From Prochlorococcus sp. scB241_528O2 (GTDB taxonomy: Bacteria > Cyanobacteriota > Cyanobacteriia > PCC-6307 > Cyanobiaceae): 64,000 nt of DNA. Shown piece after piece: positions 6,744-47,769 of this stretch (the first letter of the stretch is position 1; each line of letters begins with the position of its first letter). The stretch is taken from contig JFLJ01000113.1 of NCBI GenBank assembly GCA_000634115.1, positions 1-64,000 on the forward strand. The letters are read 5' to 3'. The notes below the pieces were generated by a model. The model did no database searches, was not told where the DNA came from, and saw nothing but the letters and a program-made list of their open reading frames with translations. A program made the translations under genes and the position numbers.

Positions 6744-7698
6744 CTTTTAACTGGAACTGTTTTTCAAATATAGGTAAAAGGAATCAATAAATAATTTAAA
6801 TAAAACCTCTGAATTTACCGTTTATATTTCTGATCTGATCTCTTATTGAGATTAATTTAATATAACTAATATTTATTATTAATGTTTAACTAAGGAGTAA
6901 AACTTGGTATTTTTAATATAAAATTTATATTTAATTAACTAATCTCAAATAATTAAGAAACAAATAAGTTTTTGACTTTCAGAAGAGTAAATTTATAAAT
7001 AGAATTTATTCTTAAATTATATTGTTGACTTCTCAAAAATATTATTATCCAGCCTTTTAAGATTTTTTACTAAGAAATCATTTTCATTAGTAAGAACAAA
7101 AGGTTTGCTTTTTTAGATTCTTCTTGGCTTTCAGAAGTCAAGCTTTATTTAATTTTATCGGAATTCATAAATTAAAAATTAATCTAAAAAAATAATCTAA
7201 AATTTTACTTATCCCTATAACAAAATGTGGACAGATTTTGAAAAAAGGGAAAATATTTTATTTTGCACATAGAAGATTTAATTCAATCAACATGTTGTGG
7301 AAAACCCTGTTGAAAAACACTAAAAAAGTGGATAACTCTCGGGGATCATTATCAAAACAAGCTTTTCTCTAATAATTCCTAAGTATTAATACTTTATCAA
7401 GATAAGTTTAAATATAGATTAAAAGGCTTAATAATCTATTGTTATAACAGTGGGATCATTACTTTTGAAATTAGACAAAGTATATTTTTCAGAAACTAAT
7501 GTTGAGAAAAAATTAAAATAATTTCTATTGTATGATGTATCAAATTAACAATTAAAGTTAAGAAAAATAACTGGTGACTTGAATTTCTGAAATTTTGTCT
7601 CAGCTGTTCAAATTAAGTCTTGATTCGGTTTTCTCTATGGAAATATCTCTCAAAGCTAAAATTAATGAAATAAATTTAATTTAGTTAAAAAATTAAAA
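6744..7698. other. 955-base gene-free region with DnaA-box-like cluster
   Basis: I find no credible gene. Within 7226-7335 four 9-mers close to the cyanobacterial/bacterial DnaA box, all in the same orientation, occur: TGTGGACAG (7226), TGTGGAAAA (7296), TGTTGAAAA (7308) and AGTGGATAA (7327). The second is an exact complement of TTTTCCACA. Flanking sequence is extremely AT-rich. Other small structures: TTACTAA/TTAGTAA hairpin near 7070-7095 and an inverted pair TTGACTTCT/AGAAGTCAA (about 7024 and 7133). Confidence 0.4.
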
Positions 7699-19698: not shown

Positions 19699-19730
19699 AA
19701 AAAGGGGGAATTTATTTCCTCCTTTTTTTT
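19699..19730 (+). terminator. Terminator after pstS
   Basis: A 10-bp stem (about 19701-19710 with 19716-19725, one G-U pair) around a short AT loop and eight T. It overlaps the last codons of the convergent chrA. Confidence 0.75.
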
Positions 19731-20955
19731 ATGCAAATAAATATTTTGATAAACCTAATATTAAAGAAAAAAGGATAAGTATGTATGTTGGAACTATTTT
19801 AAAAAAAGATAATACTGTAGAGATTAAAACTATAAAAATAGAGCTAATTAAAAAGAATTTTGATGAAAAACTATCTTCTATTAAATTAAATCCAGAGAAA
19901 ATAACTGCTCCAGGAATTGTATTGATCACTCCTTCGATAAAGTAATTAACAAATTTAATTCTGTTTTTTATGAAGCCTTTCCCAAAAACAAAAATCAATA
20001 AAAAACTTGGTAAAAAAATTGCAAAAGTTGATATAAATGAATACTTTAAAGCTTCATTTATTCCTCCAACCGAAAACCCAGCTTTGTATCCAATAAAACT
20101 TGTAGTTAATAAGACAGGGCCAGGTGTTATCTGGCCTATCATTATCCCATCTATAAATTCATTATTTGTTAACCATCCTTGTGAGACAACATAATCACTC
20201 ATTAAAGGAATGATTACTAATCCCCCTCCAAAAATAAAAAGTCCCGATTTGAAGAAGAAAAAAAACAGATTAAGATAATCTATTAAAAACTTTGAGTTTG
20301 TAGAGAGCTTTAAAAAATTATAAAACTTGGCAATATCCAAAAAGATGGAGCTATTTAAAAATGAGGTTGTTGAATATATAGATAAAGGAACCAAGCTATA
20401 AAAAATATTTTTCCATTTCTCTAAGAAAATATTTATCAAACCTGCAATAGTAAGAATTGTTATGAGAGGAAATTGAATACTATTATATTTTGCAAATATA
20501 AGTAGAAATAAGATTGAGCTAGAGAATAATACTCGATCTAACCTTAATCTTTTTTTTAAAAGAACTAATGAAAATGAAAAAATTATTCCCGCAATAATAG
20601 GAGGATTAAAATAAATTAAATCATTTAGAAATTTTGATCCAGAATAAATTTGCCAAAAAAAGCTAAGAACTAATACCGAAATGAAACCTGGGATAATGAA
20701 ACATATACCTGATATCAATCCACCAAGATAACCATTAATTTTAAGACCTATATATATTGCTAATTGCGTGGATATTGGCCCTGGAAGTAATTGACATAAA
20801 CCAATACCTTTTTCAAAAGATTGGATTGAGATCAATTTTTTATTATTTATAAGTTCATCTTCGAATAAAGAAATATGAGCATATGGTCCTCCAAAACTGA
20901 AAATACCAATTTTTAGAAAAATTTTTGCAAGTTCAATTAAGGATATTTTTGCCAT
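19729..20955 (-). CDS. chrA: ChrA-family (CHR) transporter (408 aa)
   Basis: Two homologous halves of the CHR family: [20 protein letters not shown] with [11 protein letters not shown] in the first and [19 protein letters not shown] with [11 protein letters not shown] in the second, about ten membrane segments in all. The family exports chromate and some other oxyanions. It is the last gene of gap-arsJ-chrA (30 bases after arsJ), so an arsenic-related or general oxyanion role is possible (inference). Converges with pstS. Confidence 0.88.
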
Positions 20956-29711: not shown

Positions 29712-29842
29712 TTTTTAATTACAAAATTAATATTTGAAACGATTTAATATTCGAATTAATTAAAAAGAATATTATTCTTGACTAAGAATAAACAATGATT
29801 GAATGTTATGCATTAAAAAATAAAATAAATATTCAATAGAAG

Positions 29843-44223: not shown

Positions 44224-45135
44224 ATGAATGTAAGTATTGTTATACCGACTTACAATAGATTACCTATATTAGAGAAATGTCTTGTTGCGCTTGAAAATCA
44301 AAAATTAACCCCAAATATCAGTAATTATGAAGTAATAGTAATAGATGATGGATCCACTGATGGAACAAGCTCCTGGATAAATAACAATAAAGCTAATCTT
44401 CCACACGTTATTCTATTTCAACAAGAACATGGAGGACCTGCACTTGGAAGAAATCTTGGTGTAATTAAATCAAAATATGAAATTATTATATTTATTGATA
44501 GTGATCTTATAGTTTTAGATAATTTTATAAATTGCCACGTAGAAAAATTACTTGCCTCTTGGAGAAAAAATGATAAAAAATGTTTTACCTATGGAACGGT
44601 GGTCAATACATCTAATTTTCTAAATCCTCAGAGTGAAAAACATAAAATAATGGACACTTCTTTTGCCTATTTTGCTACTGGGAACGTTGCTATATCAAAA
44701 GAATTAATTTTAAGTGTCGGCTTATTTGATACTTCTTTTAGTCTTTACGGTTGGGAGGATTTAGAACTTGGAGAAAGATTAAAAAAAATAGGTACAAAAT
44801 TAATTAAATGTCCAAAAGCAATTGGTTTCCATTGGCATCCGCCATTTAATTGCAATCAAATAGATTCATTAATAACTCAAGAAAAAGAGAGGGCAAATAT
44901 GGCGTTAGTGTTTTATAAGAAACATCCAAATTTAAGGGTTAGATTTATGATTCAATTAACTCCTCTTCATAAATTACTTTGGCAAATTCTTTGCTTTGGA
45001 GGGCTAATAAGTATTGATAGAATCCTACCTTTATTAAGATTCCTAGTAAATATAAGAAGAAACAGACTTGCACTTGAGATACTTAGGATACCTCTAAATA
45101 TGATTTATATTAAACAGTTAACTAAATCAAGATAA
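44224..45135 (+). CDS. Family 2 glycosyltransferase (303 aa)
   Basis: GT-A fold: VSIVIPTYNRLPILEKCL, VIDDGSTDGT, the DxD-type FIDSDLIVLD and a second-half acceptor motif GWEDLELGERLKK (GT7-C like). The ATG at 44224 is preferred to the TTG at 44218. The sugar and acceptor are unknown; a surface polysaccharide or lipid role is likely. Confidence 0.85.
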   Translation: MNVSIVIPTYNRLPILEKCLVALENQKLTPNISNYEVIVIDDGSTDGTSSWINNNKANLPHVILFQQEHGGPALGRNLGVIKSKYEIIIFIDSDLIVLDNFINCHVEKLLASWRKNDKKCFTYGTVVNTSNFLNPQSEKHKIMDTSFAYFATGNVAISKELILSVGLFDTSFSLYGWEDLELGERLKKIGTKLIKCPKAIGFHWHPPFNCNQIDSLITQEKERANMALVFYKKHPNLRVRFMIQLTPLHKLLWQILCFGGLISIDRILPLLRFLVNIRRNRLALEILRIPLNMIYIKQLTKSR

Positions 45136-45163
45136 AAAACTTTTAGAAATACACATCATTTGC

Positions 45164-45252
45164 TAGAATTGTTGAAATTAAATCCACACATCTGACTGTT
45201 TCGGGTGATTTATTAATATAAATTCCCCGTCAGATGGAGGCTAACCCGAAAC
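45164..45252 (+). ncRNA. Structured rpsB leader with H-type pseudoknot
   Basis: A TGCTAGAAT extended -10 (TAGAAT at 45164-45169) predicts a transcript start near 45176. Two perfect helices interlock: CATCTGAC (45189-45196) with GTCAGATG (45229-45236), 8 bp; and GTTTCGGGT (45198-45206) with ACCCGAAAC (45244-45252), 9 bp. The helix order A-B-A'-B' is a pseudoknot. Loops are 1, 22 and 7 nt; the last contains GAGG. The ATG of rpsB lies 11 nt beyond. It resembles in topology the S2 leader RNA known from other bacteria (rpsB/t44); autoregulation by S2 is inference. Confidence 0.7.
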
Positions 45253-45262
45253 CTTTTAAATT

Positions 45263-45967
45263 ATGGCTGTTGTATCACTATCTGAGATGATGGAAGCTGG
45301 TGCTCATTTTGGGCATCAAACTAGACGTTGGAACCCCAAAATGTCTAAGTATATATACTGTGCGAGAAATGGAGTACATATTATTGATCTTGTTAAAACA
45401 GCATTGTGTATGAACAATGCATATAAATGGACAAGGAACGCAGCAAAAAGTGGTAAACGTTTCTTATTTGTCGGGACAAAAAAACAGGCATCGGACGTAG
45501 TTGCCCAAGAAGCTACTCGCTGCGGTGCTGCATATGTAAACCAAAGATGGCTTGGAGGTATGTTGACAAATTGGACAACTATGAAAGCTAGAATTGAACG
45601 ATTGAAGGATCTTGAAAGAATGGAGAGTAGTGGGTCAATAGCAATGAGGCCCAAAAAAGAAGCTGCAGTTCTGAGGAGAGAACTTGAAAGATTACAAAAA
45701 TACCTTGGAGGACTTAAGGGTATGAGAAGATTACCAGACGTAGTAGTTTTGGTTGATCAGAGAAGAGAATCTAACGCAGTTCTAGAAGCCAGGAAATTAG
45801 ATATTTCATTAGTATCAATGTTGGATACCAACTGTGACCCCGATTTATGTGAAGTTCCAATCCCATGTAATGATGATGCAGTTAGATCGGTTCAACTTAT
45901 TTTAGGAAGACTAGCAGATGCCATTAATGAAGGCAGGAAGGGATCTAATGCCGAAAGAAAAAATTAA
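45263..45967 (+). CDS. rpsB: 30S ribosomal protein S2 (234 aa)
   Basis: Full S2: [56 protein letters not shown] and [23 protein letters not shown] at 45263; tsf follows after 43 bases, the standard bacterial pair. A structured leader lies upstream. Confidence 0.98.
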
Positions 45968-46010: not shown

Positions 46011-46667
46011 ATGGGAAACATTACAGCAAAACTCGTAAAAGATCTTAGAGATAAGACAGGTGCAGGCATGATGGATTGCAAAAAAGCACTTAATGAAACT
46101 GACGGAAATGTCGATAAAGCTTTGGAGTGGTTAAGAAAAAAAGGTATAGCTAGCGCTGAAAAGAAATCGGGAAGAGTAGCGGCTGAAGGCTCTATTGGTA
46201 GTTATATTCATACAGGTTCAAGAGTTGGAGTTCTAATAGAGTTAAATTGTGAAACTGATTTTGTAGCTAGGGGCGATATATTTCAATCCCTTTTGAAGGA
46301 TGTCTCGATGCAAGTAGCTGCTTGCCCAAATGTTGAGTATGTTTCAATTGACGAAATACCAGAAGATGTTGTGGAAAAAGAAAAGCAGATTGAAATGGGG
46401 AGAGATGATTTATCTGGAAAACCAGATCAAATTAAAGAAAAAATAGTTGAAGGGAGAATATCGAAAAGACTAAATGAGTTAGTTCTGCTTTCTCAACCTT
46501 ACATTAAAGATAGTTCTCTTACAGTTGAGGATCTTGTCAAACAAGCAGCAGCAAAAATAGGAGAAAATATCAAAGTAAGACGCTTTACAAGATATACATT
46601 GGGTGAAGGTATTGAAAAAAATCAGATGGACTTCGCTGAAGAAGTTGCATCAATGAAATTAAACTAG
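46011..46667 (+). CDS. tsf: Elongation factor Ts (218 aa)
   Basis: [20 protein letters not shown] (the TDVF-like N-terminal domain), [15 protein letters not shown] and the C-terminal [13 protein letters not shown]. Short cyanobacterial form with one core subdomain. Nucleotide exchange factor for EF-Tu. Confidence 0.97.
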
Positions 46668-46671
46668 AAAA

Positions 46672-47748
46672 TTGAATAATTTCAATAATTGCGAAGAAAT
46701 AGACAAAATAAACTCTCAATTAAATAGAGCAGGCATTCAAAAAAACCGACTAATTAGTCAGATCTACAGTGAGTATGAAATCTACTTTAATATGGTGAGA
46801 GATCTACTATACATTTCTGTAGAAAAAGGGCTTAATGAACTATGTAGCGACCAATCAATTAAAAATGTTTTCTTAAATGCAAACGAACTTTGTTCTTTCT
46901 TTGAGAAAAAAATAAGTAAATTAATTTACGCAAAATTGCCCTTAATAACAATAGAACAATTAAAAATAAATAAAATTGGGGAAAACATAAATCAAGAGAT
47001 TAATTTTAGAGCTTTAGGAACGTCTCAAAAAACAAAGGTTCATCAAGAAGAAGAACTTCAATATGACGATGGTCTTAAATTTGAAGAACCTATGCAGTTT
47101 AAGATTAGTGAAGATATTTCTAATGTTTCTAAATATTATCAAGATCAGAATCAAGAGAAATTCGCATCAATTGATTTAGATAAGAATCACCATATTAATT
47201 ATTTATCTAATAACAATATTATTGAAAATATAGGAGTGGACAAAAAATTTATTTCTTCCCTAATCGAATTAATACAGGAAGTTAAGGTTGAAATACCAAG
47301 GCATTCTGAAAACGAAAATATTAATCAAATTGATATTTCGCCCAAACATCAGAGTCTTAAAATTTTTGATTTAATTGACAATTCATTGGAAAAATTACTA
47401 TTGAATCTTTCATACAATATCAACTTAGAATTATTTAAGGCTAATCTAATAAAAAAGATTATATCTCAAGATTCCTTCGAGTACTTAGTAGACAAAAAAT
47501 TGATGATAAAACATCCACATCCTTTCGTTATTAATTTTGAATTCAATCTAAATAATTCATCATCCAACGGTCACAATATCCCAAGTATTATTTTCTTTAA
47601 TATATCTACTGTTGAGTTAGAATTTAAAAATTTAAATCTTTCTATCCAAAGGAATAAAATCAATGAGCTAAAAAATCAATTTCAACGTTTGATTAAAAAA
47701 GAAAGATACTGGAAGCAAAAAGAAATAACTTTGAATAAGATACGTTGA
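46672..47748 (+). CDS. Cyanobacterial hypothetical protein between tsf and recG (358 aa)
   Basis: TTG start at 46672, five bases after tsf. Helical N-terminus (about 1-95; NMVRDLLYISVEKGLNELC), a polar low-complexity linker (about 100-180) and a second helical/strand domain (KKFISSLIELIQEVKVEIP; FDLIDNSLEKLLLNLSYN). No membrane helix or catalytic motif. The position in a translation/recombination operon is typical of picocyanobacteria, but the function is unknown to me. Confidence 0.75.
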   Translation: MNNFNNCEEIDKINSQLNRAGIQKNRLISQIYSEYEIYFNMVRDLLYISVEKGLNELCSDQSIKNVFLNANELCSFFEKKISKLIYAKLPLITIEQLKINKIGENINQEINFRALGTSQKTKVHQEEELQYDDGLKFEEPMQFKISEDISNVSKYYQDQNQEKFASIDLDKNHHINYLSNNNIIENIGVDKKFISSLIELIQEVKVEIPRHSENENINQIDISPKHQSLKIFDLIDNSLEKLLLNLSYNINLELFKANLIKKIISQDSFEYLVDKKLMIKHPHPFVINFEFNLNNSSSNGHNIPSIIFFNISTVELEFKNLNLSIQRNKINELKNQFQRLIKKERYWKQKEITLNKIR

Positions 47749-47769
47749 AAAATAACTCTTTTTTCAGAT

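Follow-up and report, generated by a model that had tools for sequence, protein, structure and literature searches.

The leader of rpsB in the 64,000-nucleotide stretch of Prochlorococcus DNA analysed here (the window) is very probably the cyanobacterial branch of a known kind of rpsB leader (rpsB motif, t44), a putative autogenous r-leader responding to ribosomal protein S2. The leader contains two perfect helices. Helix A, or P1, is formed by CATCTGAC (45189–45196) and GTCAGATG (45229–45236) and has 8 bp, and helix B, the pseudoknot, is formed by GTTTCGGGT (45198–45206) and ACCCGAAAC (45244–45252) and has 9 bp. The helices are interlocked in the order A-B-A'-B', with the 3' end 10 nt upstream of the rpsB ATG (45263). 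The coordinates, the order and the gap had been given in an earlier note on this DNA and were confirmed by a check of the sequence, whereas its description of the helices as GC-rich was overstated, the one-strand G+C content being just moderate (4/8 in helix A and 5/9 in helix B). Its term H-type pseudoknot holds for the interlocked helices, but the pseudoknot is not bare, as a third stem (P3) lies between B and A'. The gene names rpsB and tsf follow protein families and the E. coli record. The features are as follows.

45161..45169, + strand: extended -10 box TGCTAGAAT, read from the sequence; the TGnTAnnnT spacing is kept across leaders
~45176, + strand: predicted transcription start, placed from the -10 box
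45184..45190, + strand: CCACACA, conserved 5' flank entering P1; invariant columns in alignment A1, and E. coli P1 also begins CACA
45189..45196, + strand: P1 5' arm (helix A), from sequence and covariation
45198..45206, + strand: pseudoknot 5' strand (helix B, J2-3); 9/9 pairs kept in 56/56 A1 rows
45207..45224, + strand: P3 hairpin GAUUUAU-UAAU-AUAAAUU, from the minimum free energy (MFE) fold and from loops compared with shuffles
45225..45228, + strand: CCCC adjoining P1; 45226–45228 are able to pair with GGG 45203–45205, in competition with the pseudoknot
45229..45236, + strand: P1 3' arm, from sequence and covariation
45237..45243, + strand: GAGGCUA, conserved linker from P1 to the pseudoknot, from the alignment; GUGGAGGC is found in E. 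coli too
45244..45252, + strand: pseudoknot 3' strand, from sequence and covariation; ends 10 nt before the start codon
45263..45967, + strand: rpsB (ribosomal protein S2), homologues found; tsf follows at 46011

The 64-kb window contains four cases of perfect 8+9 helices that interlock within 100 nt, against 0–6 (mean 2.3) in 15 dinucleotide shuffles, and shuffles of the 87-nt leader contain such a pair in 4 of 20,000 cases. Since such pairs, taken by themselves, are no more frequent in the window than chance would give, the reality of the rpsB leader fold rests on its conservation. The other interlocking perfect pairs (at least 8 bp with at least 9 bp) are located at 19710–19775, 29712–29774 and 47680–47764, their number being that expected by chance.

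The gene rpsB was detected in 51 of 61 genomes of the genus, 149 of 151 of the family and 239 of 242 of the class, and leaders were read for 60 members of a Cyanobiaceae sample and for 61 from other families of the same class. Both helices, in the same order, precede rpsB in 60/60 Cyanobiaceae leaders (58 by script; L123 and L151 by eye). The same fold is present in 60/61 leaders of other families (54 by script and 6 by eye), with L234 set aside as unclear. The pseudoknot has 9 bp in 60/60 Cyanobiaceae leaders, where it ends 8–15 nt upstream of the start codon, and 4–10 bp in the other families. The gap between P1 and the pseudoknot strand is 0–3 nt in most leaders, i.e., P2 is absent or very short, with a longer insert in L230. 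Four Cyanobiaceae leaders (L128, L139, L140 and L150) have 100–139 nt between the pseudoknot strand and the P1 3' arm, a greatly enlarged P3 region. An additional Prochlorococcus set comprised 109 loci, whose leaders fall into 95 different sequences when the final 100 nt are compared; L001 and L020 in it are the window itself, and L081 and L089 were dropped from it because their leaders run off the contig. A phage link was rejected, as the leader had no match in the phage collection; the S2 protein matched 12 phage records, none of them named after a cyanobacterial host.

Two alignments were used for the analysis of covariation. Alignment A1 (56 rows) consists of the window and 55 of the 60 Cyanobiaceae leaders, excluding L128, L129, L139, L140 and L150 for their long loops. 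In A1, 95.5% of the P1 cells are paired, with changes on both sides at 5/8 pairs, while the pseudoknot is 100% paired and nearly invariant, its changes being one-sided only, so that no double change was found in helix B among these 56 Cyanobiaceae rows. RNAalifold, which cannot draw interlocked helices, gave helix B alone on A1. Alignment A2 (53 rows) consists of the window, 9 of the 60 Cyanobiaceae leaders and 43 of the 61 leaders of other families; long-loop and unusual forms were excluded, as was L234, set aside in all analyses, and the rows L219 (3' side misaligned) and L178 (shifted by one) were retained in the counts. Here both-side changes were found at 11/15 pairs (7/7 counted pairs in P1 and 4/8 in the pseudoknot), and the number of double-changed cells was 118, versus 26.7 in shuffles and 5–21 in slid controls. 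The A2 pseudoknot is paired in 92.9% of its cells. Taken alone, it has 18 double-changed cells versus 4.5 when shuffled, a value reached in 0/500 shuffles; the same helix slid by +1 has 13. Its outermost pair holds 12 of the 18 double changes, with 16 of 52 cells there unpaired, and its GGGU/ACCC core is invariant. Thus, of the compensatory changes that the earlier note had proposed to look for in both helices, those in P1 are clear and strong, those in the pseudoknot are modest and confined to outer pairs, and the core offers no variation.

The loop between the pseudoknot strand and the P1 3' arm also appears to be structured. In the window, P3 pairs 45207–45213 with 45218–45224 in the MFE fold, at −1.5 kcal/mol alone. 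Compared with shuffles, the P3 loops have a mean z of −2.82 in Cyanobiaceae (54/58 below −1), −2.16 in other families (39/51) and −1.58 in the Prochlorococcus set (29/56); P3 is thus weak in Prochlorococcus. Eight hand-set leaders and L234 were left out of the energy runs on P3 loops and on GGG:CC(C) pairing. Because this loop folds better than shuffles, the element consists of P1, P3 and the pseudoknot. Among 200 shuffles of the complete 87-nt leader, just one folds as well as the leader itself. The folding is no longer unusual when 40 nt of coding sequence are included, as 31 of 200 shuffles then do equally well.

A promoter is predicted at a fixed distance upstream of the fold. TGnTAnnnT occurs 15–35 nt upstream of P1 in 60/60 Cyanobiaceae leaders, 54/60 leaders of other families and 109/109 of the Prochlorococcus set, counts that are not independent, as the leaders are related. 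At the control distance of 35–110 nt before P1 it was found in none of the three leader sets, and at 110–135 nt in 1/58, 2/59 and 2/109 leaders. A scan with the plain promoter consensus over 45000–45400 gave one site versus a shuffle mean of 2.2, which is not significant alone. A -10 box at 45161–45169 would place the start near 45176, upstream of P1, and the transcript would therefore carry the fold. This agrees with the earlier note, which had put the fold just after a predicted transcription start. Together with the conserved fold and its covariation, the positioned -10 box supports the view that rpsB has a structured leader, most likely a putative S2-responsive one.

The fold might instead act mainly as a separate small RNA made from the leader, as in the annotation of t44/tff in E. 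coli, whose record labels the leader as the putative small RNA T44; one terminator-like stem (45189–45207; shuffle mean 0.2) indeed lies inside the fold. That stem is incompatible with P1 and with the pseudoknot, as it would use strands of each. In each of the 120 leaders retained, the fold keeps a fixed place near the start of rpsB, and we regard this explanation as exceedingly improbable. As a candidate in its own right, the terminator-like stem at 45189–45207 was rejected because of its conflict with P1.

The relationship of the fold to known r-leaders was examined with covariance searches in both directions. The Rfam family t44 (RF00127) matches 45167–45246 with 27.7 bits (E 0.00037 in a 221-base search) and with the 8-bp P1 in register, which is below its gathering cut-off of 44 bits. 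At genome scale, no t44 match was reported in the own genome, and 0/60 class genomes were over the cut-off. For RF01815 ('rpsB'), which we take to be the rpsB motif of Meyer et al., no match was reported in the window (gathering cut-off 40 bits); in the class it reached E ≤ 1 in 18/40 genomes, often but not always at the rpsB leader, and the cut-off in 0/40. Only 3 of 19 cyanobacterial loci scanned matched t44 or RF01815 at E ≤ 0.5. The comparison with RF00127 and other r-leaders suggested by the earlier note thus yielded an in-register t44 match, with neither Rfam cut-off reached. The sole Rfam match over cut-off in the window is the cyanobacterial RNA Yfr17 (RF02365) at 7194–7452 on the + strand, with 85.7 bits.

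In the reverse direction, a search model built from the cyanobacterial leader alignment (R1) finds the rpsB leader of E. coli K-12 in register with 20.7 bits and E 5e-5, the search covering 1.2 kb; the second-best place there scored 3.7. In the own genome it gives a single strong match of 65.1 bits, at rpsB, followed by one of 16.3. Both coordinates were available for 77 class genomes, and in all of these the match (E ≤ 6.6e-5) abuts rpsB. Across the phylum, R1 matched 186 of 291 genomes at E ≤ 1, weak sister-class matches included, and gave no match in 105/291, including the class members G099, G211, G223 and G235. The weak matches in sister classes lie mostly away from rpsB: in four genomes with both coordinates, only that of G429 is at rpsB. 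Among the leaders of twelve sister-class genomes, one matches R1 (L274, E 7e-5, with two candidate starts). By eye, the sister-class leaders L274, L276, L277, L281 and L285, of which only L274 matches R1, carry CACACG or GCACGCC together with GCGGAGG blocks; these resemble P1 and the linker, and the pseudoknot there is different or weak.

In Meyer et al. 2009 (PMC2704228), the rpsB motif consists of P1, P3 and a pseudoknot between J2-3 and a 3' extension of P1; Cyanobacteria are listed for it, P2 being absent or very short there, and the pseudoknot has five pairs outside Firmicutes. The window element agrees with this motif in its position upstream of rpsB, in the compensatory changes of P1, in the J2-3/P1-extension pseudoknot, in its absent or very short P2 and in a variable P3. 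Yet, the pseudoknot has 9 bp in Cyanobiaceae. With the E. coli rpsB leader, i.e., t44, the element shares the in-register 8-bp P1, the CACAC flank, the GUGGAGGC linker, the GGGU/ACCC core and an AACCC block, whereas in E. coli the pseudoknot (identified by eye) has about 5 bp and lies farther from its start codon than the 9 bp of the window, and the t44 model contains a stem missing from the window leader.

The earlier note had considered a separate or poorly described r-leader class. A distinct cyanobacterial class, unrelated to t44/rpsB and of independent origin, could explain why the window leader falls short of both Rfam cut-offs and why the majority of cyanobacterial leaders in the scan have no match to either family. 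It is contradicted by the local matches, which are in register both ways and include the CACAC, GUGGAGGC and AACCC blocks common with E. coli, and by the published motif, whose architecture is that of the window element and which lists Cyanobacteria. The separate class was therefore rejected, its independent origin being very improbable. The S2 leader kind has already been reported, including from cyanobacteria; the new part is the Cyanobiaceae subtype.

This subtype differs from the leaders of other families in its start region. A Shine-Dalgarno (SD) sequence, defined as a match to four or more letters of TAAGGAGGT, GG included, whose end lies 4–12 nt before the start, precedes rpsB in 0/60 Cyanobiaceae leaders and 0/109 of the Prochlorococcus set versus 60/60 leaders of other families, where it often directly follows the pseudoknot strand. 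As a genome control, ORFs taken from their first ATG and 200 aa or longer were examined in ten stretches per group. SD-like sequences preceded 29/191 ORFs in the Cyanobiaceae stretches versus 30/191 at the control position, which is background, and 23/105 versus 11/105 in those of other families; within the window, 2/44 ORFs (at least 120 aa) had one. Since SD use is at background in Cyanobiaceae, the missing SD characterises the lineage and is not peculiar to rpsB. This accords with a literature passage, according to which Prochlorococcus does not rely on SD sequences. The earlier note had proposed the GAGG of the final loop as a ribosome-access switch. This is unlikely: 22 nt separate GAGG from the ATG, and the same letters recur in E. 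coli and in the majority of other-family leaders, all 60 of which have their own SD. As an SD it was rejected on the same grounds, and it probably represents a conserved element of the loop instead.

A further trait of the subtype is a C-rich stretch adjoining P1. In the 5 nt that precede the P1 3' arm, CC is found in 58/58 leaders of the family, in 60/60 distinct segments of the Prochlorococcus set and in 13/54 elsewhere, and in the MFE fold that stretch is paired with two or more of the GGG residues in 58/58, 60/60 and 23/54, respectively. Strictly, CCC no more than 2 nt from the P1 3' arm is found in 45/58, 54/56 and 2/54. For the window, energies computed without a pseudoknot model are −20.3 kcal/mol for helix A with GGG:CCC, −17.8 kcal/mol with helix B forced and −12.1 kcal/mol for helix A with both pseudoknot strands free. 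As the GGG is invariant, competing GGG:CC(C) pairing cannot be shown by covariation; the family leaders appear, as a hypothesis from folding, to have gained this competing fold. The absent SD, the ninth pseudoknot pair and the competing CC(C) co-occur in the Cyanobiaceae clade. These Cyanobiaceae features were not found described in the open-licence literature searched, and a term search of PMC7247131 gave neither 'uS2' nor 'cyanobacteria'.

In E. coli, S2 represses rpsB-tsf through the leader with S1 needed as a helper, and the ribosome binding site lies outside the S2 operator (review, PMC10931766). In the window leader, S2 exceeding the free 30S subunits would bind P1, the pseudoknot and the conserved linker and would most probably stabilise the pseudoknot, which would in turn block 30S loading at the start codon 10 nt downstream. 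The outcome would be less S2 and, through the operon, less EF-Ts. In Cyanobiaceae, where no SD is present, the ribosome footprint would cover the pseudoknot strand itself, and without S2 the leader would probably adopt a local fold with GGG paired to CC(C). Given the place of the E. coli ribosome binding site, beyond the operator, and the need for S1 there, blocking may proceed differently in the two.

The pseudoknot might instead be a constitutive element of translation or stability, e.g., for docking of bS1 or the 30S subunit, and not an S2 sensor. A conserved structure directly before the start codon, with no SD in Cyanobiaceae, would suit such a role, as would the high affinity of bS1 for pseudoknots, stated in a review. 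In E. coli, however, the same kind of RNA serves S2 as a site of repression (PMC10931766), and the own genome holds its single strong match at rpsB, which makes a purely constitutive role unlikely.

Within the preferred reading, that of a putative autogenous S2 leader, the Cyanobiaceae form may tentatively be modelled as a two-state switch for SD-free initiation, in which GGG chooses between the local CC(C) and the 9-bp pseudoknot; we hold this as a possibility with the balance against it. The CC(C)-paired state would be free, with the start open, and the pseudoknot, whose end lies some 10 nt short of the start codon, would be the S2-bound, closed state.

Collectively, these results correct the lead of a new class and extend the S2 leader, with covariation, through the cyanobacterial class, whose leaders both Rfam families (RF00127 and RF01815) miss at their cut-offs. 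If the two-state switch were true, it would provide a concrete case of an r-protein operator for SD-free translation, in abundant ocean phototrophs.
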